Positions 40,371 through 50,094 of a stretch of 64,000 bases of DNA are shown here, in pieces. The DNA comes from Paenibacillus taichungensis (lineage in GTDB: Bacteria; Bacillota; Bacilli; Paenibacillales; Paenibacillaceae). The stretch covers positions 372,001 through 436,000 of the forward strand of contig NZ_QEVW01000014.1 of the NCBI RefSeq assembly GCF_003287275.1, written 5' to 3'. The notes below the pieces were generated by a model. That model was not told where the DNA came from. It searched no databases and was given only the letters and a program-made list of their open reading frames with translations. The position numbers and the translations under genes were made by a program. Positions within the stretch are counted from its first letter, which is position 1. The number at the start of each line of letters is the position of its first letter.

Positions 40371-41300
40371 CTAATGAATGGCATAATGTACAGTCATCTT
40401 AATATTTTGGTCATAATCTCCAAATTGTCGACCAAATAGATTTACGCCACCTTGATGAACCGCATCCGGTTTGATACCGATTCGCACCCTTAACTTATGG
40501 CTGTTTTGAAGATTAAGCTGAGCCAGATCAACTGCTGAAATTTTCTCCATATCCAGCGTCGTCTTGTTTTTGTCCACTCTCCATGTCTTTAATAAACCAT
40601 ACTGTGTTGACCATTCAAACCACCACGCTGGGTTGAGCTTTCCGCGCCGATCTCCAAAGTCACCAGGACATGTCCACATACCAATTTCCACACCGTTAAT
40701 CCATACAGAGATATCGGAAGGCCAATTATGATCATAGTTTGGTGCTTCAGAACATATTTCCATGGACAGTTCCAATGATTCGATTACCGCTTCTGCCGGA
40801 ATCTCCAGTGGCATCAAATATTCGACATAACCCTTACGAAACCACATAATTTGCGCTCCCACATGCTTCGGATGATAAAAACTGGCGGGTTCATCTTCAC
40901 GAATGATCATGCCCTCACCATTCGCCATGCCGCAAGTGGGTGACACTTCACAATCACTATAATGACCGATAGGCATATCCACTTCGTACACCTGGATATC
41001 GCCTTTGGGAATTGCTTTCTCCAGGTTAAGAGCAATATGAATATCATCGTAATTGCGGCTGCATACCTTCATCGCCCCTCGAGAGGCAGGCAGCAATTCC
41101 GTATTGATCAGCCTTGCAGCTTCCAACACCTTGATGTTGCTGGCTACCGTGGATACTGGAAGTTTGAGAGCTTCCGCGATTTCAACGATATTCAGGTTTT
41201 GGGAGATCAGCAGTCGTAGAATATCCACTCTGGATCGAGTCGACAACGCATGCGTGACCATGACCAGCTCATCCGGATTATCAAAACTCAGCTCAAGCAT
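40371..41300 (-). CDS. ArsR-type HTH regulator with large C-terminal domain
   Basis: 309 aa, far longer than plain ArsR proteins. Winged helix at residues about 10-90: VTHALSTRSRVDILRLLISQNLNIVEIAEALKLPVSTVASNIKVLEAARLI. Residues 100-305 form an unrecognised beta-rich domain with a repeated Trp/His pattern (PASFYHPKHVGAQIMWF, ISVWINGVEIGMWTCPGDFGD), perhaps a carbohydrate-sensing sandwich. GAGGTGG precedes ATG 41300. A TTAAAC-N5-GTTTAA palindrome lies upstream. It directly precedes the sugar operon on the same strand and may regulate it. Confidence 0.82.
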   Translation of the reverse strand: MLELSFDNPDELVMVTHALSTRSRVDILRLLISQNLNIVEIAEALKLPVSTVASNIKVLEAARLINTELLPASRGAMKVCSRNYDDIHIALNLEKAIPKGDIQVYEVDMPIGHYSDCEVSPTCGMANGEGMIIREDEPASFYHPKHVGAQIMWFRKGYVEYLMPLEIPAEAVIESLELSMEICSEAPNYDHNWPSDISVWINGVEIGMWTCPGDFGDRRGKLNPAWWFEWSTQYGLLKTWRVDKNKTTLDMEKISAVDLAQLNLQNSHKLRVRIGIKPDAVHQGGVNLFGRQFGDYDQNIKMTVHYAIH

Positions 41301-41413: not shown

Positions 41414-42877
41414 TCATTCTTCTTCATTTTTCCCGATCAGATCCTGCAAACGATTACTGGAATGGTTGATTTCTCCCATTAATGCATACATGATATCCAT
41501 ATTGCTTTCCTGCTCCTGCGTTGTTGCCAGCACATCCTCCGTCGCTGCTGCATGCTTCTGCGAGATAGCTGATATATGATCCACTTGTTGGCGGACTCGA
41601 TTAAAAATCAGACTCATCTGATCGGTCATATCCATTTCCTTCGCTATGTATTGATCAATATGCTCAAACGTAGACTTGATATGGTCAAAGCTCTCAAGTA
41701 CCTGACTGGAGATGGCTTTACCTTCTTGTACTGCTTCACTTCCGTTAGTCGCTTTTTCAACTACAAGCTGTGTCTTACGCTTGATATTATGAATAATTTC
41801 GTCGATCTGTTTAACCGTGTTGGAGCACTCCTGCGCGAGCTTTTTGACCTCATTGGCTACGACGGCAAACCCCGCTCCTGTTTCCCCTGCTCTGGAGGCT
41901 TCAATATTTGCGTTTAAGGCTAGCAGGTTGGTCTGATCAGAGATTTGGTTGATGGCTGTCAGGAAGGTATTCACTTCATCCATGCTTTTGTTCAATTCCT
42001 CAACGGTCGTCATTGACTCTGTAACTGTGACATTAATAATAGTCATCTGATTGCCCATTTGAACAATTCGATCCGAGCTTTGGCGAACAACCAGACCATT
42101 TTGTTCTGAGATGTCGGCGAGCCGATGTGACATTTGGTTGATTTCGGACATTTTCCCATCAGCTTTGTTTACCTCCTCACTAATTTGTGCAATGCTCCCG
42201 GATTGATCGCGTATGCCTTCCGTCACTTCCTGAATATTCGCGGTTATCGTATTACTCATGTTTTTCAACATTTGAATATCGTTATTGCAGCTGGCAATAT
42301 CCGTGTTCAGCATAGATGTATTTTCGCGAACGGCTCTTACCATAGTATCCAGTGCTATCACAAGCTCTCTCGCTTCCGCTTCCTTGTTAAGAGCCACCTG
42401 AATCAGATCTCTGCCACGTTTGCAGACAAAATATAGAGCAACGATCGTCAGTTCGATAAACCCAATCGTCATGAAAAAAGTCGAATCATATTGCTGATGG
42501 CCTGAATAATAAATCACAATATAAGCAATGTTGTACATCGCCCCAAACCCGTATAGCAGAACTCTATTCAAATAAAGAGAGATCACACAGAGAACAACCA
42601 TAATGAGCATGCCTGCAGCAGGTGATTCAATATATGGCGTCGTACAGGTCAGTATGGCAATCATCAGAACGACCATCGTCAAGACTGTTTTTTTGCGAAT
42701 AATCAATACAGTAGCAATAGACAGCTCAATTAACAGTGAGAACACGACTTCGAGTTGAACCTTATTGCTCGCAATGAAGAAACAGAATGATAACAGGGTT
42801 AACCATAAAATCGTAACGATAATTTTGTTTATTTTGATTGTATTGCTTCTAAAAAAGCTGTTGTGCATGATGCTCAT
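41414..42877 (-). CDS. Methyl-accepting chemotaxis protein without external sensor domain
   Basis: 487 aa. About six membrane segments occupy residues 18-165, with no sizeable extracellular loop. There is no clear HAMP domain; the cytoplasmic part starts with a coiled coil. The signalling tip is unmistakable: [40 protein letters not shown]. The protein should relay a membrane-sensed cue to CheA/CheW. It is translated after a 26-aa peptide whose stop codon overlaps its ribosome site region (GAGGGGGAG), and two membrane-protein genes lie upstream in the same operon. Confidence 0.85.
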
Positions 42878-42890
42878 GTTTTGCTCCCCC

Positions 42891-42971
42891 TCAGCGACTT
42901 GTGAACTTCTCTTTGATGATTTTTATCAGAATTAGACAGATATTAAGCAGGATTACATACCATAGTTCCAT
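42891..42971 (-). CDS. 26-aa hydrophobic small protein, upstream of the chemoreceptor gene
   Basis: Minus-strand ATG 42971 to TGA 42891-42893 encodes [20 protein letters not shown] followed by EKFTSR. A strong ribosome site, GGAGGG, lies 6 bases before the ATG, within the last codons of the 237-aa gene; the stop touches the ribosome site of the chemoreceptor gene. Residues 4-19 form one membrane helix, with a basic C-terminal tail. A start six bases earlier (ATG 42977) is in frame but too close to the site. No family is recognised. It could be a small membrane regulator or signal peptide of the operon. Confidence 0.6.
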
Positions 42972-42973
42972 GT

Positions 42974-43648
42974 TCATCCCTCCGTTACAGGCTCTTTTTT
43001 CTTATGAAGCATCATCCATACCCCGATAAGACAAAACAATACACTGCACCCCATGCCAAAGCAGGCACTCGTGTTTATTGCATGAGGTGAGCCTTCCATC
43101 GTCAGCAACGTGGCTTGAGTAACAACAATGGATACCATGGCATCGGTAAAGTTAATCATTTTTAATGTGGAGATCAAGGGATTTTTCAAATGCCGGTTAG
43201 CTATTGTTCCGGAAATACCAAAAGCCAGTTTGGTAAAAGCAACGGCGGCTACAAGGTACACGATGTAACCTTTAAATACAAAAGTGTCACCAAGCAGATA
43301 CATCCTTAGACAAACCAACAGATAGGAAACGCCCAGTATGCATAACAGAATTCCTCCACGTTTATAGACTTGAATCTCCAATATATACCTTTCCTGCGGG
43401 GATTCGATTCTTTTGGCTACGTTATATTGATGAAGTACTTGTGCTCTGGCGACACAAAGGATCAGATAATATACCGCATTCGTAATAAACCATCCGGAAA
43501 AGAGATATAAACCAAGGGTTAACTTGCCTATGCCGATCAATGCGTTGATGACAAGAGATGCAGCGTTAGACATGGCAGCTCGATCTTGCTTGTTTCCGAG
43601 GTAATGAACAAAGATTGCCTTAATATATATCTTCCTTTCCGAATGCAT
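42974..43648 (-). CDS. Conserved membrane protein, CDF-like N-terminus
   Basis: 224 aa from ATG 43648 (MHSERKIYIKAIF), five bases after the upstream stop; a longer frame from 43687 overlaps the preceding gene. About six hydrophobic segments. The first, NAASLVINALIGIGKLTLGLYLFSGW, resembles the first helix of cation diffusion facilitators, but the HxxxD metal sites are not seen, so zinc transport is not supported. Function unknown. Its last codons contain the ribosome site of the 26-aa peptide. Confidence 0.7.
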   Translation of the reverse strand: MHSERKIYIKAIFVHYLGNKQDRAAMSNAASLVINALIGIGKLTLGLYLFSGWFITNAVYYLILCVARAQVLHQYNVAKRIESPQERYILEIQVYKRGGILLCILGVSYLLVCLRMYLLGDTFVFKGYIVYLVAAVAFTKLAFGISGTIANRHLKNPLISTLKMINFTDAMVSIVVTQATLLTMEGSPHAINTSACFGMGCSVLFCLIGVWMMLHKKKEPVTEG

Positions 43649-43653
43649 TTTTC

Positions 43654-44187
43654 TTACTTGGCCAGCAAACCATTGGCCTTCTCGCATACTTCATAGATTT
43701 CGTCGTATTTCTTGTCAATAAAAGGTGTTACTTTATCTGTCTTTTTCCGTCGAATACCATTGAAACTGAAATACGGAATGATCCAGCCCGCAAAACCGGG
43801 AATGGCAAGAATGACAGACAGTGGCAGCATATTGTCCAGATAGGCAAACACGGAACCAGCCATACATGCCGTTCCCAAGAGACCGATCCCATAGGCAACG
43901 ATAGAAGCACTCGTAAGCTTCGAGCGTTCCAACGTTTCAATGTCAGTCACACAGGCTTCAAACTGCCGCTGAAGACGAGTCAGCTCCGCTTTATTGCGGA
44001 TTTTGCGATCACGCTTGAATTTCATTGTTACAGAACCCACATTCTGAAACGGCGTCGAGGTTCCTTCCAACATCCAGCCAAAATGGGTATAGCCATCGGC
44101 ATAGACGGACTCGGAGTCCTGTTTTACCGTAATGTCCTTGTATTCATAGCCTATAAAGTTATGTTCATTTTTCGTTAGCTCTTTCAT
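43654..44187 (-). CDS. Conserved membrane protein, 177 aa, unknown function
   Basis: Residues 1-85 are hydrophilic with a beta-rich start (FIGYEYKDITVKQDSESVYADGY) and a helix ELTRLQRQFEACVTDIETLERSK. Two membrane helices follow near 94-115 and 118-140, then a charged tail. Similar proteins occur beside the CDF-like protein in other Firmicutes, as far as I recall. It is the first gene of the operon ending with the chemoreceptor, and three 11-bp boxes lie upstream at 44251-44283. I do not know its function. Confidence 0.72.
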   Translation of the reverse strand: MKELTKNEHNFIGYEYKDITVKQDSESVYADGYTHFGWMLEGTSTPFQNVGSVTMKFKRDRKIRNKAELTRLQRQFEACVTDIETLERSKLTSASIVAYGIGLLGTACMAGSVFAYLDNMLPLSVILAIPGFAGWIIPYFSFNGIRRKKTDKVTPFIDKKYDEIYEVCEKANGLLAK

Positions 44188-44239
44188 GGCTTTTCAACAC
44201 TCCTTCAACTTTTTTCTTCACCCTGTATTGGATGTTCCT

Positions 44240-44283
44240 ATCGTAGTGGTAAATTGTTTATAAGTTGCTTATAAAATGTTAAC
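44240..44283 (-). promoter_or_regulatory. Promoter region with three tandem 11-bp boxes (response-regulator site candidate)
   Basis: On the plus strand three 11-mers stand end to end: AAATTGTTTAT (44251-44261), AAGTTGCTTAT (44262-44272) and AAAATGTTAAC (44273-44283). Reading minus, a TACGAT -10 (44240-44245) lies such that the boxes overlap the -35. The first box is identical to one at 46145-46155 upstream of the adjacent response-regulator gene. Tandem 11-bp spacing is typical of OmpR/PhoB-family binding. Confidence 0.68.
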
Positions 44284-44290
44284 GAAATAT

Positions 44291-44342
44291 TAATAAGGAC
44301 AGCCTGAATTCGAAATAATCCGAATTCAGGCTGTCCTTATGC
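44291..44342 (-). terminator. Terminator of the HK/RR operon
   Basis: A 20-bp perfect stem, ATAAGGACAGCCTGAATTCG (44293-44312) with its complement at 44321-44340, and an 8-base loop. It ends the kinase/regulator transcript, just before the boxes for the neighbouring operon. Confidence 0.82.
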
Positions 44343-44350
44343 ATTGCATA

Positions 44351-45418
44351 TCAACGTTTAACTTGTAACTGGACTGTAAATGTCGTGCCCTTATTAGGCT
44401 CACTTTTTACCGATATGACGCCACCTACCAGCTCAATAACGCGGAGCGAAAGAGCAAGCCCCAGACCGTTCCCCTCCGCATGGTGGGAAGCATCGCCCTG
44501 ATAGAATTTATCGAAGATATGCCTCATCGTTTCCTCATCCATCCCACAGCCTGTATCGGATACCATAACCGTGATCGTATCGTCATCCGAACTTTGCTTC
44601 AAGGTAATTGTTCCACCGGAGGGTGTGAATTTAAGCGCATTGGAGATCAGGTTGTGCCATACGATCTCCAGCATACTCTCTTCAGCTTGAATCATCGCGC
44701 GATCCTCAATATCGACCACAAATTCAATATTTTTTTCTTCCCATGTATTTTCAAAATATATCGCGCAATCCACGAGCTGCCTACATAAATCATACGGATC
44801 GGCAACAGGCAGAATCTCCTGGTTCTCCAGCTTGTTCAGCTTGAGGATGTTGACGACGAGCGTCGCCAGCTTATTGGTAGAGGAAATAATAGTATCCGTA
44901 TATTCCTTTCGAAGATCGGGTTCCAAATCATCCTGCTGTAGGGCCGTGGCGTAGCCATGAATGACAGACAGTGGTGTCTTGATTTCATGGGATACATTCG
45001 AAATAAAGTCGTTTTTCAACGTCTCAATGCTGTTCAATTCCTCCACCATCTTGTTAAAGTCCTCAAACATGACATCCACATAGTTCAGCTTGTCCGCTCT
45101 ATGAATCGGTTCGAGATATACCGAGAAGTCACCTTCTGCTACCTGCTTTGCAGCCTCACTGAGTTTTCGCATAGGCTTATCAAACGTTTTGTACCTTTGT
45201 CGTGCGGTGACCAGGCAAAAAATGAGACTCACAATGCTCCAATATCCCGAGATTCCAAAAATGTACTGCCACGGCACAACTTCCACCGGTAAATACGCAT
45301 CATAGATTAGGGCTTGACCCGCCGTCAGGATCGACAGCAAAAGGTAGGTAAGCAAGAACTCTTTCCAAGAAAAAAGGTGGGACTTGATTCGTGCATCAGG
45401 TTTCTGCTTCTTGTTCAT
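44351..45418 (-). CDS. Sensor histidine kinase, HAMP/HisKA/HATPase
   Basis: 355 aa. Two membrane helices near residues 18-38 and 50-70 with a very short outside loop, so signal sensing is probably in the membrane. HAMP about 72-125; phospho-acceptor His in SNVSHEIKTPLSVIHGY; N box NLISNALKFTPSG, G1 DTGCGMD, F box FDKFYQGD and G2 GNGLGLAL. The start overlaps the response-regulator stop as ATGA. The short-loop topology recalls intramembrane-sensing kinases that partner membrane transporters in Firmicutes. Its likely target is the neighbouring membrane-protein operon. Confidence 0.9.
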   Translation of the reverse strand: MNKKQKPDARIKSHLFSWKEFLLTYLLLSILTAGQALIYDAYLPVEVVPWQYIFGISGYWSIVSLIFCLVTARQRYKTFDKPMRKLSEAAKQVAEGDFSVYLEPIHRADKLNYVDVMFEDFNKMVEELNSIETLKNDFISNVSHEIKTPLSVIHGYATALQQDDLEPDLRKEYTDTIISSTNKLATLVVNILKLNKLENQEILPVADPYDLCRQLVDCAIYFENTWEEKNIEFVVDIEDRAMIQAEESMLEIVWHNLISNALKFTPSGGTITLKQSSDDDTITVMVSDTGCGMDEETMRHIFDKFYQGDASHHAEGNGLGLALSLRVIELVGGVISVKSEPNKGTTFTVQLQVKR

Positions 45419-46086
45419 TGCAGTACAGCCTTATAACCCAGACCATGTACCGTCATGATTTTGAAATCCTCACAACAGGAGAACTTATCGCGAAGTTTGA
45501 CAATGTATACATCCACGGCACGCAAGCTCGTCTGACTTTCGATACCCCAGAACTCATCCATAAGCTGAGCTCTTGAAAAGGTATGTTTCGGATAGGATAA
45601 CAGTTTGTAAAGAATGTTGAATTCCCGGACTGTCACAGGAATATCTATGCCATCCACCGTAGTCGTCATATCATTGGCGTCCATGAGCAGACTGCCTACA
45701 ATCAATTTCTTCTCATGGGCGATATTGGCCCGCCGCAGGAGAGCACCCACGCGCAGGACCAGTTCGTCCAGATCCGCCGGTTTGACCATGTAATCATCGA
45801 TGCCTGCAAGAAAACCTCTTTGTTTGGAGGAAATATCATCACGGGCGGTAATAAAAAGAATGGGAATCGTCTTATTGATGCCTCTTACGGTCTCGGCAAA
45901 TTCAAAACCATCAATCTCTGGCATCATCACATCGGAAATGAGAAGATCGTACATCTGGTTATACATCAAATCATAAGCCTCACGCGGATTAAAGCACCCT
46001 TTGGCCTCATACCCATTATTCGATAGATAGGTGCAAATAATTCGATTGAGCTTGGTATCGTCTTCCACAACAAGTATATGGATCAT
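45415..46086 (-). CDS. OmpR/PhoB family response regulator
   Basis: 223 aa from ATG 46086 with GGAAAGGATG upstream; the frame from 46167 is too long for the family. Receiver domain at 1-118: acidic pair in HILVVEDDTKL, phospho-acceptor Asp in LLISDVMMPEIDG, Thr in FITARDD and Lys in YMVKPADLDEL. Winged-helix C-terminus: PVTVREFNILYKLLSYPKHTFSRAQLMDEFWG and RAVDVYIVKLRDKF. Two tandem 11-bp boxes at 46134-46155 overlap its own -35, suggesting autoregulation. Confidence 0.9.
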   Translation of the reverse strand: MIHILVVEDDTKLNRIICTYLSNNGYEAKGCFNPREAYDLMYNQMYDLLISDVMMPEIDGFEFAETVRGINKTIPILFITARDDISSKQRGFLAGIDDYMVKPADLDELVLRVGALLRRANIAHEKKLIVGSLLMDANDMTTTVDGIDIPVTVREFNILYKLLSYPKHTFSRAQLMDEFWGIESQTSLRAVDVYIVKLRDKFSCCEDFKIMTVHGLGYKAVLQ

Positions 46087-46122
46087 ATAAAAAACATCCT
46101 TTCCGGCTGACTGAATGGGGTC

Positions 46123-46155
46123 ATTATAATAAAAAGTTGTTAACAAATTGTTTAT
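46123..46155 (-). promoter_or_regulatory. Response-regulator promoter with two tandem 11-bp boxes
   Basis: TATAAT on the minus strand at 46123-46128. AAGTTGTTAAC (46134-46144) and AAATTGTTTAT (46145-46155) abut on the plus strand and overlap the expected -35, whose own sequence (ACAATT) is poor, as in activated promoters. Same boxes as at 44251-44283. Confidence 0.68.
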
Positions 46156-46319
46156 GGCGGCGCACACCGATCTATTATTCTCAATTCATAATTTAAATTC
46201 ATATCTCTCAAACATCTTGCTAACAACTTGGAAACATCAGTACTTCATGATTGCCCTATCGAATCGTTCATAGGCAGCACCTGCAAATGGGCGATAATCA
46301 GTCATAAGGAGTGAAAGGC

Positions 46320-47339
46320 ATGATGAAAGCAGCCATCTATTACGGTAAAAATGATATTCGTGTTGAAGAAAGATCAACCCCGGTCGTAGGTCCCCGAGAT
46401 GTACTGGTCAGAAATGTACGGGCTGGCATCTGTGGCACTGATATTAATATTGTGAAGGCTGGCAACGGTAACATGGGCATCAGCCTTGGTTCGGAATTTG
46501 GACATGAAATGGTCGGCGATATTGTCGAAATTGGATCAGAAGTTTCTGCGATGATCAAAATTGGAATGCGCGTTGGGATTAATCCCATCACTGCTAAAAA
46601 AGCAGGAAGACGCAAATCCCTGGAATGCTCCGGGTTTTCCCAGTATGTATTAATCGAAGACGCCAAGCTTGATTATAATCTGTACCAAATGGATAAAACG
46701 GTATCCGCAGAAGTCGCTTCACTGATTGAACCAATGAGTGTTGGGCGACATGGCGCTTTCAGTGCCAACCCTGAGACCGAAGACCACATTGTTGTAATGG
46801 GGGCTGGTCCAATCGGCTTGCTGGCCGCTGCCAGTTTGATTGCCGAAGGCATGAAACATGTCTGCGTGGTGGACATGGATGAATGGCGTTTGACAAAAGC
46901 TGCGGGACTTGGGGCGTTAACCGTGAATACAGGTGAAACCACTCTTGAAGAAGGATTGACCCGGCATTACGGTTCTGTGAACGTATACGGTGTTGACGTC
47001 CCGGATGTCGATGTGTTTATTGATGCGGCAGGTGCTCCGGTTTTGTTTGAGAACATGATGAAGATCGTTAAACCTAAAGCTAGAATTTCAATTATCGCCG
47101 TATATAAATCTGAAGTACCAATCAGTTTACAACAGATTATGTCCAAAGAAGTTCAGGTCAAAGGCTCCAGCGGCTATACGCACGAGGATTTTGCCAAGGT
47201 GGTGGAGCATCTGATCAGCTTCCAAGAAGAACTGTCCACACTGGTCACCCATGTATTTAAACTGGATGATATTCAGAAAGCCTTTACTACAGCCATTGAA
47301 GCCAAGGGAACCGTTAAAGTGGTCATTGATCTGACATAA
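46320..47339 (+). CDS. Zinc-type alcohol/polyol dehydrogenase (MDR family)
   Basis: 339 aa from ATG 46320 with AAGGAG eight bases upstream. Medium-chain dehydrogenase: catalytic-zinc Cys in RAGICGTDI, His-Glu in EFGHEMVGDIVEIG, and NAD(P)-binding VVMGAGPIGLLAAA. The four-Cys structural-zinc lobe normally near residue 95-115 is missing: only one Cys (LECSGFSQYV) is there, and the loop is short. Related to threonine/sorbitol dehydrogenases; the substrate is not predictable. Divergent from the two-component system and ends at a bidirectional terminator. Confidence 0.85.
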   Translation: MMKAAIYYGKNDIRVEERSTPVVGPRDVLVRNVRAGICGTDINIVKAGNGNMGISLGSEFGHEMVGDIVEIGSEVSAMIKIGMRVGINPITAKKAGRRKSLECSGFSQYVLIEDAKLDYNLYQMDKTVSAEVASLIEPMSVGRHGAFSANPETEDHIVVMGAGPIGLLAAASLIAEGMKHVCVVDMDEWRLTKAAGLGALTVNTGETTLEEGLTRHYGSVNVYGVDVPDVDVFIDAAGAPVLFENMMKIVKPKARISIIAVYKSEVPISLQQIMSKEVQVKGSSGYTHEDFAKVVEHLISFQEELSTLVTHVFKLDDIQKAFTTAIEAKGTVKVVIDLT

Positions 47340-47487: not shown

Positions 47488-48750
47488 CTAAAATGCGACA
47501 GGTAAGGCAGCCAAGCTCTGCGAACTTAGCGCCAAATGCCACTCAATGTTTTCCCGAGGAATATTAAGTCGCAAATTAGGCATGCGTTTTAACAACGTTG
47601 TAAAGGCGATATCTCCCTCCACACGAGCAAGTGGAGCTCCCAAGCAGGAATGAATGCCATGACCAAAAGCCAGATGACGATTAATATGACGGGCAACATC
47701 CAGATCCTCTGACTGTTCAAATTGAAGTTCATCCCGATTGGCTGATTTCAGTACGGGGATGACCATATCTCCCTTTTTGATCTGTTGCCCTGCTAGCTCT
47801 AAATCCTCAGTTGCAAAACGAGGTCCGGCAATGGTTGCTGGCCCGTTAAAACGCAGCAATTCCTCTACAGCAGAAGGTGCCAGACTAAGATCAGCCTTGA
47901 GCTTCTCCAATTGTTCAGGATGATCCAATAACATCATTGCACCCGTAGCAATCAGATTGGATGTTGTCTCATGCCCAGCAAAAATCAATAACGTAATCAT
48001 GGATAACAGTTCCGGTTCACTGAGTCGATCGCCCTCTTCTTCTATGGCAATCAATTGGCTGATCAAATCATCCGCAGGATATTTGCGTTTTTCAGCTACC
48101 AGCTGCGCAGTATAGTCTCCGAAAGCTCGGAGGTGTTCCTCCACTCCCGGTTCACGCACTCCGAGGCCCAGACCATGTGCAATTGCGGAGGACCAGGTCT
48201 GGATCTGTGGGCGATCCGCTTTAGGTACTCCCAGCATGTCGGATATCACATGAATCGGTAAGGGATAGGCGTAGTCCTTGACCAAATCCATCTCGCCCTG
48301 GGATTGAACCTGATCCAGTAATTCATCAGCGATCTGCTGCACACGCGGGCGAAGACTTTCCATATATTTTGGGGTAAAAGCTTTGGAGACCAGTCGGCGC
48401 AATCGTCGATGATCAGGCTCATCTACAGAGAGCATTGATTTCCCGGTGAAGAACGTTGGAGGAGCATCTGGATCGATATTCTCCACATAGGCTTTCAGGA
48501 CATTCTCATTGCCGTCGATGGATAATGGGTCAACTGTGAAGTGGGCATGATCTTTAAGCACCTGTGAAGCTTCTTCCATTCGTGTGACCAACCACTGCCC
48601 GCGATCTGTACCACCCATTGGCAAAGATGCCGGAATAACAGGACCTGTATCACGCAACTGCTTGATCAGTGAAAACGGGTTTTCACCACTATCCCCACTA
48701 AACAGACTCAGCGCTGCTTGTTGTGAAGCATTAGGATCTAGCTCGCTCAT
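47488..48750 (-). CDS. Cytochrome P450
   Basis: 420 aa from ATG 48750, preceded by AAAGGGTGG. Bacterial class I P450 (CYP107-like): oxygen-activation motif FAGHETTSNL, ExxR in AVEELLRFNGP, and heme Cys in AFGHGIHSCLGAPLAR. Soluble, so it needs a ferredoxin partner that is not encoded here. Encoded after the isochorismatase-like gene in one operon that diverges from a TetR gene across a double operator; it may hydroxylate a xenobiotic or secondary metabolite. Substrate unknown. Confidence 0.9.
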   Translation of the reverse strand: MSELDPNASQQAALSLFSGDSGENPFSLIKQLRDTGPVIPASLPMGGTDRGQWLVTRMEEASQVLKDHAHFTVDPLSIDGNENVLKAYVENIDPDAPPTFFTGKSMLSVDEPDHRRLRRLVSKAFTPKYMESLRPRVQQIADELLDQVQSQGEMDLVKDYAYPLPIHVISDMLGVPKADRPQIQTWSSAIAHGLGLGVREPGVEEHLRAFGDYTAQLVAEKRKYPADDLISQLIAIEEEGDRLSEPELLSMITLLIFAGHETTSNLIATGAMMLLDHPEQLEKLKADLSLAPSAVEELLRFNGPATIAGPRFATEDLELAGQQIKKGDMVIPVLKSANRDELQFEQSEDLDVARHINRHLAFGHGIHSCLGAPLARVEGDIAFTTLLKRMPNLRLNIPRENIEWHLALSSQSLAALPVAF

Positions 48751-48786
48751 TATAACCACCCTTTCACTTCGAAAATTATATTAGGT

Positions 48787-49368
48787 TCAAATTAATGCTT
48801 TTATCCAATCATCTACAGTCAGCACATCGGCATGTTGGGGGAATACACTCTCGATGAGAACACGATGAACTTCAGGGTCTCTGTCCAGACAGGCATCAGA
48901 AAGTACGGTCAGCGCGTAGTCCTTATCCGCCGCTTCACATAATGTAGAAAGAACTACTCCGCTGGTTGCGATACCACTGAGGACCAGTGTATTGATGCCA
49001 TGGGATTGAAGGAGATTTTCCAATTCACTTCCCGAGAATCCACTGACGCGGAACTTGTCCACAATGAGCTCGCCTGGGAGTGGCTGCACCGACTCATGGA
49101 TGTCCATTGCCACTTTCATCGCCGGATTGGGTTCGCTCACATCGCCGCGGCTAGACTTTTTTCCAAATAACTTGTTGCGCTCACTTATTGGAGGGACTTC
49201 CTGGCGATGACCAACCTTCACAAAAATCACGGGTACGTTATGTCTGCGAGCTGCTTCTACCGCTTTCTGAAACGGGAACAGTGCATCCTCGTGCTTCACA
49301 TATTGCGATACAATGATGTTCTGCATATCCATGACCAGAAGTGCAGCTTGGTTATGATGACTTTCCAT
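48787..49368 (-). CDS. Isochorismatase-like cysteine-hydrolase family protein
   Basis: 193 aa from ATG 49368 (MESHHNQAA); the frame is open to GTG 49377. The fold's catalytic Asp is in ALLVMDMQN and Lys in IVDKFRVSGFSGS. The segment where hydrolases carry the nucleophilic Cys reads SGIATSGVVLSTL, with Val-Val instead of Cys, as in the isochorismatase-like subset that does not use a thiol. So amidase activity should not be assumed. First gene of the operon with P450. Confidence 0.83.
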   Translation of the reverse strand: MESHHNQAALLVMDMQNIIVSQYVKHEDALFPFQKAVEAARRHNVPVIFVKVGHRQEVPPISERNKLFGKKSSRGDVSEPNPAMKVAMDIHESVQPLPGELIVDKFRVSGFSGSELENLLQSHGINTLVLSGIATSGVVLSTLCEAADKDYALTVLSDACLDRDPEVHRVLIESVFPQHADVLTVDDWIKALI

Positions 49369-49401
49369 GGGTTGCACATCCCTCTCATTTTGATTAAGAT
49401 T

Positions 49402-49464
49402 AAGAGGAGAACTCTCCGCTTAACCTCTTCTTGATATTAAACGGAGGGTTCTCCTCTTGTCAAA
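49402..49464. promoter_or_regulatory. Double TetR operator and promoter for the P450 operon
   Basis: AAGAGGAGAACTCTCCG (49402-49418) and CGGAGGGTTCTCCTCTT (49442-49458) are inverted copies with one mismatch, and each half is itself a near-palindrome. On the minus strand TTGACA (49459-49464) and TTTAAT (49436-49441) are spaced exactly 17 bp, with the second copy filling the spacer. This layout predicts direct repression by the divergent TetR. Confidence 0.75.
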
Positions 49465-49497
49465 TTTTGGACGTCGAAGGATAGGAAGTGACAGACA

Positions 49498-50094
49498 GTG
49501 GATATAACCAATACCACCTCTCGTTCGGAGCGACGGGATGCCGCCGAGAATCGCCAACGTATCTTGGATGTGGCTAGCAAATTATTCGAGCTGCACGGCG
49601 TTGAGCGGGTCAGCATGAATCAGATCGCTTCCGCAGCGCAGATTGGAGCGGGTACCTTATACCGCCGATACCGTAATAAGAGTGAGTTATGCATGGACTT
49701 GATCAAAGATAATGCAGCGCTGTTCTTCGATGATGTGGAGATATACTTGCAGGAGAATGTACAGCGTCCACCATCTGAGCGATTGCGGGGTCTGCTTACG
49801 TTATTTATCCAATTTAGAGAGAAAAATGCGGAATTGCTCTCGGGTATTGAGAATGCAGTATATCAAGGATCAGAGTCCAGAACCTCAAGTCCTCTTTATG
49901 ACCAATTGCATCAGCAGCTATTTGAACTATTCGAAGAGATGGCAACAGAGAGTAACGAATCACAGGCCATCAGTTTGTTCAAAACGGACATGCTTCTGAC
50001 GGCCATGAGCAATGACTCGTATCTTTTTCAAAAAAACGTGCGCGGTAACTCTCCCGACCGCATTGTGGAGCAGCTTTGTTTGACCTTTCTTTAA
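49498..50094 (+). CDS. TetR family transcriptional regulator of the P450 operon
   Basis: 198 aa, GTG start at 49498 with AGGAAG nine bases upstream. HTH: ILDVASKLFELHGVERVSMNQIASAAQIGAGTLYRRYRNKSELC, with YRRYRNK as the recognition-helix end. C-terminal domain typical of TetR, about 80-195. Divergent from the isochorismatase-like/P450 operon, whose promoter is filled with inverted repeats, so it most likely represses that operon until a ligand binds. Confidence 0.87.
   Translation: MDITNTTSRSERRDAAENRQRILDVASKLFELHGVERVSMNQIASAAQIGAGTLYRRYRNKSELCMDLIKDNAALFFDDVEIYLQENVQRPPSERLRGLLTLFIQFREKNAELLSGIENAVYQGSESRTSSPLYDQLHQQLFELFEEMATESNESQAISLFKTDMLLTAMSNDSYLFQKNVRGNSPDRIVEQLCLTFL

Follow-up and report, generated by a model that had tools for sequence, protein, structure and literature searches.

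We analysed a 64-kb stretch (the window, to which all positions refer) of a 7.0-Mb Paenibacillus genome, which contains a candidate membrane-signalling system. An OmpR/PhoB-type response regulator (RR) and a histidine kinase (HK) adjoin an operon that encodes A177, a protein of 177 aa, the CDF-fold membrane protein B237, a hydrophobic peptide of 26 aa and a chemoreceptor (MCP), all on the minus strand. A preliminary description had proposed this operon beside the kinase/regulator pair, and a check of open reading frames and coordinates found every gene where it had been placed. That description did not include the zinc-dependent dehydrogenase (ADH) with its own operator that lies divergent from RR, nor the exchangeable cargo genes of other loci (radical SAM, SDR and DHA2 efflux). 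The features are the following:

41414-42877, minus strand: MCP, chemoreceptor of 487 aa (P0003) with a polytopic N-domain and a canonical signalling tip; MCPsignal (PF00015) 1.3e-33
42891-42971, minus strand: open reading frame of the 26-aa hydrophobic peptide behind GGAGGG; 28 aa if read from an upstream ATG
42974-43687, minus strand: B237 (P0002), membrane protein with a CDF fold according to a structure model
43654-44187, minus strand: A177 (P0001), 177 aa, predicted small N-domain on a hydrophobic helical hairpin
44250-44293, minus strand: four-box operator of the A177 operon, with a -10 element TACGAT at 44240-44245
44293-44340, minus strand: terminator-like hairpin with 20-bp perfect inverted-repeat arms, between HK and A177
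44351-45418, minus strand: HK, histidine kinase of 355 aa (P0004); HisKA 2.1e-16, HATPase_c 3.6e-28
45415-46086, minus strand: RR, OmpR/PhoB-type response regulator of 223 aa (P0005); Pfam Response_reg 1.5e-24, Trans_reg_C 8.2e-17
46133-46154, minus strand: two-box operator of the RR-HK promoter, with TATAAT 4 nt further on
46198-46241, plus strand: four-box operator of the zinc ADH, with CATGAT 4 nt further on
46311-47339, plus strand: zinc-dependent medium-chain dehydrogenase (ADH), likely start 46320 or 46323, divergent from RR

The two adjacent regulatory genes encode a receiver/winged-helix regulator and a HisKA/HATPase_c kinase, as found in OmpR/PhoB-type two-component systems. A crude hydropathy analysis places two membrane segments in the N-terminal part of HK (residues 21-39 and 53-71) with a loop of about 13 aa between them, and a HAMP-like segment scores 2e-4, below the cut-off. 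The perfect inverted repeat sets the HK gene apart from the A177 operon. The first Met of B237 overlaps A177; homologues point to a start near Met14, just past the A177 stop.

The operator consists of tandem 11-bp boxes, about TAAACATTTCT, directly upstream of the -10 element and usually 4 nt from it. That both promoter regions carry the same boxes, as had been proposed, was borne out by the sequence and by a model scan, with four boxes before A177 and two before RR. The training set of the box model comprised A177 promoters of related loci, and the threshold was the 99.5th percentile of 904 base-shuffled upstream regions. For the counts per gene class, upstream stretches shorter than 120 bases were excluded, and the shuffles preserve base composition only. 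In the window the model detected two four-box sites (plus one overlapping register) and the two-box site of RR, while ten single-base shuffles of the window at the same thresholds gave no four-box and one two-box site. Four boxes precede 45 of the 74 A177 genes, a circular count, and 19 of the 41 RR genes; two-box sites precede 27 of these 41. Among gene classes outside the training set, four boxes were found before ADH (5/14, in five Paenibacillus loci), the SDR-epimerase (C8, 4/7) and DHA2 efflux genes (C12, 2/4), and before classes C10 (4/6), C21 (3/4), C9 (3/6), C34 (2/3), C17 (2/4) and C11 (1/5). The counts are lower for MCP (2/15), B237 (3/23) and radical SAM genes (1/12). The background is 10 of 536 other genes, where the threshold alone would give about 3, and none of 44 HK genes. 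At least one four-box site before a system gene or a recurrent gene is present in 54 of 61 loci. Several of the genes for MCP, the efflux pump, B237, A177 and RR stand under boxes of their own in the reshuffled loci L138, L143 and L144.

The -10 element usually stands at a fixed distance. A TANNNT hexamer exactly 4 nt past the last box occurs in 35 of 45 threshold-passing A177 promoters, 21 of 27 RR promoters, 4/4 for C10, 3/3 for C21 and 3/4 for C8, compared with a chance expectation of about 1 in 28 at a fixed place under the assumed base composition. This position of boxes next to the -35 region is the geometry of PhoB-type activators. A short stretch right after the -10 element, like ACATCAAA, recurs in A177 promoters of distant loci and may mark the transcript start; the window copy is ACATCCAA (44228-44235, minus strand).

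Two-box sites were counted in the window and the loci, four-box sites genome-wide. With a degenerate pattern and at most three mismatches, the whole 7-Mb genome contains two sites only, before A177 and ADH, both perfect, and the reversed-pattern control gave none. In a sample of 75 genomes of the genus, 10 carry an operator site. These comprise all 9 genomes with A177, with two sites each, and 1 of the 66 genomes without it (G054, one weak site); the control gave 0/75 (Fisher P 8e-11 for operator versus A177 presence, relatedness ignored). The site in G054, with three mismatches, was judged to be a chance match, and no system genes lie in the 8 kb around it. The window shuffles and the ratio of 9/9 to 1/66 thus uphold the shared boxes as real and specific to genomes with the system. 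The genus ratio also bears on the identity of the regulator. The TTAACA-N5 repeats resemble PhoP/PhoB boxes, and PhoB models are among the best NCBIfam scores of RR, all below the cut-off, so the boxes might be Pho-type sites for PhoP or another OmpR-family regulator, with the local RR incidental. We regard this as very improbable, since the four-box site tracks the system within one genus and occurs only twice in the 7-Mb genome.

Homologues of A177 define 61 loci in a collection of 84,980 species, at 34-95% identity. The protein is present in 9 of 75 genus genomes and in 5 of 398 phylum genomes, one of the latter (G418) having a broken fragment and no RR. The hosts are mostly Firmicutes and include Clostridia, Listeria, Sporolactobacillus, Enterococcus and Cellulomonas, together with Spirochaete and Anaerolineaceae bins. 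Gene calling recovered A177 in 58 of the 61 loci (missed in L065, L070 and L074), and some genomes occur under two labels (L015/L141, L033/L143, L014/G016, L016/G040, L017/G001 and L018/G050). Of the 61 loci, 38 contain the RR-HK pair and 47 at least one of the two, with RR at 60% identity or more in 40. Among the 41 loci of at least 12 kb, 37 have HK and 35 have RR. The complete set of RR, HK, A177, B237 and an MCP with the window-type N-domain is found in seven of the 61 loci, so that the gene set recurs elsewhere, as the preliminary description had proposed to check.

The reverse test points in the same direction. RR at E <=1e-70 is found in five of the 398 phylum genomes, of which four carry A177; the fifth, G360 (L139, C253), has an RR with internal stops, a truncated HK and no A177, and represents a decayed pair. 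Evolutionary distances between partners correlate in all six pairs tested (r 0.65-0.88; 0/500 permutations each, species relatedness ignored); the MCP row of this test comprises 12 loci, two of which (L046, L062) match in the signalling domain only. Because of the co-occurrence, the reverse RR test and the correlated distances, the module seems to have been passed on as a unit, by inheritance or transfer, if patchily. In G645 about 150 kb separate the A177-B237-MCP operon from RR-HK-ADH, and four-box sites are present at both places. An origin of A177 on a plasmid or phage was rejected, as it had no match in either collection.

A177 reached no Pfam cut-off and no NCBIfam model. The nearest scores are 19 bits to DUF2541 (cut-off 28.2) and 17 bits to DUF2207_C (cut-off 33), and weak DUF2207_C matches are seen in 52 of 63 relatives, the best at 6.1e-5. 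Crude hydropathy indicates a hydrophobic hairpin at residues 91-138, and the structure model (pLDDT 79.7) shows a long helical hairpin carrying a small beta-alpha-beta-beta domain. A sequence search of the single protein against the PDB gave no match at E <=1 and no credible profile match, and Foldseek returned no match at E <=0.001 for the model. VIA-align listed coiled coils (PspA, chemoreceptor tails) and elongation-factor domains with Z scores of 6.7-8.8; according to the tool, these possibly share a common arrangement only, and they were set aside. A likeness of the N-domain to DUF4177 (PF13783) was also dropped, since the whole genome, A177 included, has no match to it at E <=1.

For B237 itself there was likewise no match above a Pfam cut-off or to an NCBIfam model; among 28 relatives, 9 match PF01545. 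Its earlier label as CDF-like is supported by the structure model (pLDDT 81.9), in which the CDF fold is predicted: the top Foldseek matches are ZnT1/ZnT7 (E 9.2e-5, TM score 0.59-0.61), and six of the seven helices were read as membrane-spanning. B237 shares this fold with cation diffusion facilitators such as ZnT and YiiP, but lacks their Asp/His metal ligands and, judging from the model, is too short for the usual cytoplasmic domain. In the 28-row alignment, TM2 (65-93) has no well-filled column with at least half D, E, H or C, and in TM5 (170-197) D182 is the sole candidate ligand, present in 14 of 28 rows. B237 is best described as a putative CDF-fold membrane protein without the CDF metal site. 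A177 and B237 represent two uncharacterised membrane protein families.

B237 is found in 29 of the 75 genus genomes, in 21 as a close homologue and in 8 only as a paralogue of 27-28% identity. Twelve of the 21 genomes with a close B237 lack A177. The gene has decayed in L015/L141 and is absent from L022 and L028; P. algorifonticola retains the peptide together with a decayed B237 gene. Judging from these loci, B237 is dispensable to the system. A B237 paralogue of 26-27% identity at L103:4003-4695 (own genome, C6:506002-506694) adjoins a TetR-like gene, labelled by reading of the protein, and a DHA2/LmrB-like efflux gene, and no two-component system lies in the 9 kb around it.

All nine genus genomes with A177 have retained the reading frame of the peptide, as has G680. 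Between three lineages the proportion of synonymous differences (pS 0.41-0.61) exceeds that of non-synonymous ones (pN 0.16-0.22) in a small sample, which suggests purifying selection. The peptide was seen in part of the Paenibacillaceae only. G645 contains a related stretch with no clear start codon, and no peptide was seen before MCP in L022, L028, L029, L032 and L033 (5/5 other loci, two of them named Paenibacillus). Contrary to the first proposal, the peptide is consequently not a core part of the set (0/5 other MCP loci examined).

In the same proposal A177, B237 and/or the peptide were the primary sensors of a membrane event, relaying it to the short-loop kinase and the chemoreceptor. 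Short-loop kinases often rely on partner membrane proteins, A177 co-varies with HK (r 0.67), and 17 of the 61 loci have at least two A177 copies, all of which would fit such a role. We nevertheless consider it unlikely: the genes for A177, B237 and the peptide look like regulator targets themselves, and many loci with an RR-HK pair lack B237 and the peptide. A177, B237 and MCP are better taken as candidate effectors or feedback partners. Since they are apparent RR targets, it is the kinase itself that more likely receives the first cue. Of all partners, A177 is found most constantly; it probably acts back on the kinase or connects the kinase to the membrane. In L036, L042, L048 and L062 one A177 copy follows HK and the other lies farther on; the copies are diverged subtypes.

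The N-domain of MCP (residues 1-166) is a single copy in the genome. Crude hydropathy gives six partly overlapping peaks within residues 19-152 and no extracellular domain. The receptor thus lacks an external sensor, as had been described; six is a provisional helix count. Of 295 family genomes, 16 have the N-domain (one being the genome of the window), 14 of them as strong matches; two weak ones (22-29%; G500, G611) are outside this count. All 14 strong matches adjoin A177 and/or B237, which places the chemoreceptor in the system, and RR is present in all nine other MCP-bearing genomes tested. The gene order is A177-B237-peptide-MCP in the window, A177-B237-MCP in L029 and L032 and A177-MCP in L022 and L028. 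In L143 and L144, MCP is divergent from RR and has four boxes of its own, and in L138 it lies opposite the efflux gene with two boxes. The MCP genes of L046 and L047 (554 aa) were excluded as system receptors, as their match is limited to the signalling domain.

Over seven relatives (7 of 12 named loci passed the alignment filter), identity is 43-94% in the N-domain and 44-93% in the rest of MCP. The N-domain and the rest diverge at about the same rate, and the N-domain is therefore under constraint. The hairpin tip is canonical, with 61-98% identity over residues 300-360, and a CheA dimerisation domain is encoded in the genome. A receptor without external sensor that is co-encoded with a kinase could also be a modulator of output, for example of the kinase or of biofilm formation, rather than a taxis receptor, but the well-conserved tip and the CheA domain make this quite improbable.

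A second receptor type occurs in two Clostridia loci (L062:1416-2714 and L052:8624-9949; 65% identical to each other). Its N-terminus has no significant match to the window MCP; it comprises two hydrophobic segments with a very short loop, and a stretch labelled HAMP-like by reading. The gene adjoins B237 or A177, and in L062 it stands under its own four-box site. Two unrelated receptors without external sensor in the same company are the strangest fact here. This finding also concerns the view of an ordinary two-component system whose operon carries MCP as a passenger without functional tie. Paenibacillus genomes are rich in MCP genes, and the window-type receptor is present in only 10 of the 61 A177 loci. 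Against such a passenger stand the 14/14 strong matches within the system, in several gene orders and some with their own operator, as well as the second receptor type, and we regard it as very improbable.

The further genes near the module differ between lineages. ADH, with L-threonine 3-dehydrogenase as nearest NCBIfam model (7.8e-44, below the cut-off), has relatives in 14 of the 61 loci, belonging to Listeria and to the group of the window. Mostly in Clostridia, the module is accompanied by a radical SAM/SPASM protein of about 455 aa (12/61) or a 3-beta-HSD/HpnA-like (SDR) epimerase (7/61), both without an assignment; for the former, a role as membrane-lipid enzyme was considered. Examples with either of them beside the module are L034, L020, L022, L026 and L028. 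DHA2 efflux genes occur mostly in other Paenibacillaceae (4/5 loci, plus L138, L142 and L144), and the efflux protein of L032 scores above the TIGR00711 cut-off. Past ADH, the window contains cytochrome P450-like, isochorismatase-like and TetR-like genes (47488-50094, labels read from the proteins), of which P450-like and TetR-like genes recur next to the system in L146, L141 and L157. On the other side, an ArsR-like HTH regulator (40371-41300, likewise labelled by reading) adjoins a sugar ABC transporter operon, and in L103 and L104 the B237 paralogue has a similar gene nearby.

The sequence comparisons establish the gene set, the operator, its specificity and the co-occurrence of the partners, and we infer that RR is the protein that binds the boxes. 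Rather probably, the locus encodes a self-contained two-component regulon in which a kinase signal induces membrane proteins, a dedicated receptor for taxis and an exchangeable cargo for detoxification or efflux. Phosphotransfer from HK to RR and activation from boxes abutting the -35 region are usual for this family. In the proposed mechanism, the kinase would respond to a change in or at the membrane. Phosphorylated RR would raise its own transcription from two boxes and activate the A177-B237-peptide-MCP operon and the zinc ADH from four, presumably touching the polymerase in the PhoB manner. A177 may then feed back on the kinase or tether it to the membrane, and B237 may be a membrane adaptor with a CDF fold that has lost the metal site. 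MCP would be produced only while the kinase is active, hence a swimming response built on demand, and it might turn the same membrane state, or a signal of A177/B237, into a swimming bias through CheA. ADH, SDR, radical SAM and DHA2 efflux proteins would be exchangeable cargo that detoxifies or expels the agent. Of the original interpretation, the co-occurrence, the shared boxes and the membership of MCP are retained; the sensor role of the membrane proteins and the peptide as a core part are not.

Several observations speak against the proposed regulon or limit it. The type of cue is a guess from the short loop, and we infer feedback on the kinase for A177, a protein whose fold has no significant match. 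The A177 promoter score is circular because the model was trained on A177 promoters. In seven of the 61 loci, no system or recurrent gene is preceded by a four-box site. Own four-box sites are missing from 9/14 ADH and 11/12 radical SAM genes, many of which sit 3' of A177 on the same strand, and from 13/15 MCP genes, which is expected since these are downstream genes. In L142, where MCP lies opposite the efflux gene, no box was found on the MCP strand. None of five ADH promoters has TANNNT at the 4-nt place, where CATGAT is found instead. Neither RR nor HK is present in 14 of the 61 loci; 11 of these are shorter than 12 kb, L045, L052 and L070 are not. The flanks of L052, which has A177 and MCP, contain no four boxes, RR or HK. 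In the stretches examined from 7 of the 12 genus genomes with B237 but no A177, no boxes or other system genes lie near B237, which therefore has some function outside the system. The helix count of MCP rests on hydropathy. Several of the farthest loci come from metagenome bins, and their taxonomic labels may be mistaken. The detoxification theme is weak, since the putative cargo varies by lineage and ADH belongs to a broad family.

More tentatively, we propose an inducible membrane-state taxis, in which the sensor-less MCP is built on demand and reads the bilayer or the co-induced A177/B237. If this is true, taxis would be gated by gene induction and the cell would swim by its own membrane state, with detoxification or efflux provided by the same regulon. 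Independent recruitment would then have brought two unrelated types of sensor-less receptor into one regulon. The system as a whole represents a sharply defined candidate regulon around A177, B237 and a sensor-less receptor, with an operator, few genes and several natural rearrangements. It raises the questions of how such a receptor is driven and whether envelope-stress signalling is coupled directly to taxis. The operator can be used for finding further regulon members in other genomes.

Among the literature matches listed there is no description of this gene set, in agreement with the preliminary description, to whose author no described system with this set was known. For the working mode of MCP, HtrII with sensory rhodopsin II offers an analogy, not a common descent: a partner membrane protein drives the transducer. 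HtrII is an archaeal, light-driven, two-helix transducer with no two-component regulon, and differs from the system of the window in all these points. LiaFSR is comparable as an envelope-stress system with an accessory membrane protein. LiaR, however, is of the NarL type, whereas the regulator here is of the OmpR type, and no LiaF-like family match was found among the five system proteins scanned. BceRS/GraRS-type kinases also have two membrane helices and a very short loop; unlike in these systems, the operon has no BceAB-type ABC transporter, with none among the same five proteins (the flanks were read by eye), and a HAMP-like segment is present.

A close likeness is that to SaePQRS of S. 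aureus. There the kinase, of about 350 aa with a HAMP domain, is called intramembrane-sensing, and the system induces small membrane proteins of its own that feed back on this kinase (PMC5083920). The Sae regulator site is the direct repeat GTTAA-N6-GTTAA with an 11-bp period (PMC5083920), and in both systems such repeats precede membrane-protein genes, the boxes here being known by sequence alone. In the same source SaeQ has four predicted membrane helices, SaeP is a lipoprotein and the regulon comprises more than 20 virulence factors (PMC5083920). By these descriptions A177, with one hydrophobic hairpin, and the six-span B237 are set apart from SaeP and SaeQ; the box sequence and number differ, and the targets here are a handful of local genes including a chemoreceptor, with two four-box sites genome-wide. 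By analogy, SaePQRS can be taken as the best described parallel for the regulatory part, and what would be new is an apparently inducible, dedicated, sensor-less chemoreceptor arm on a two-component regulon of a known kind.

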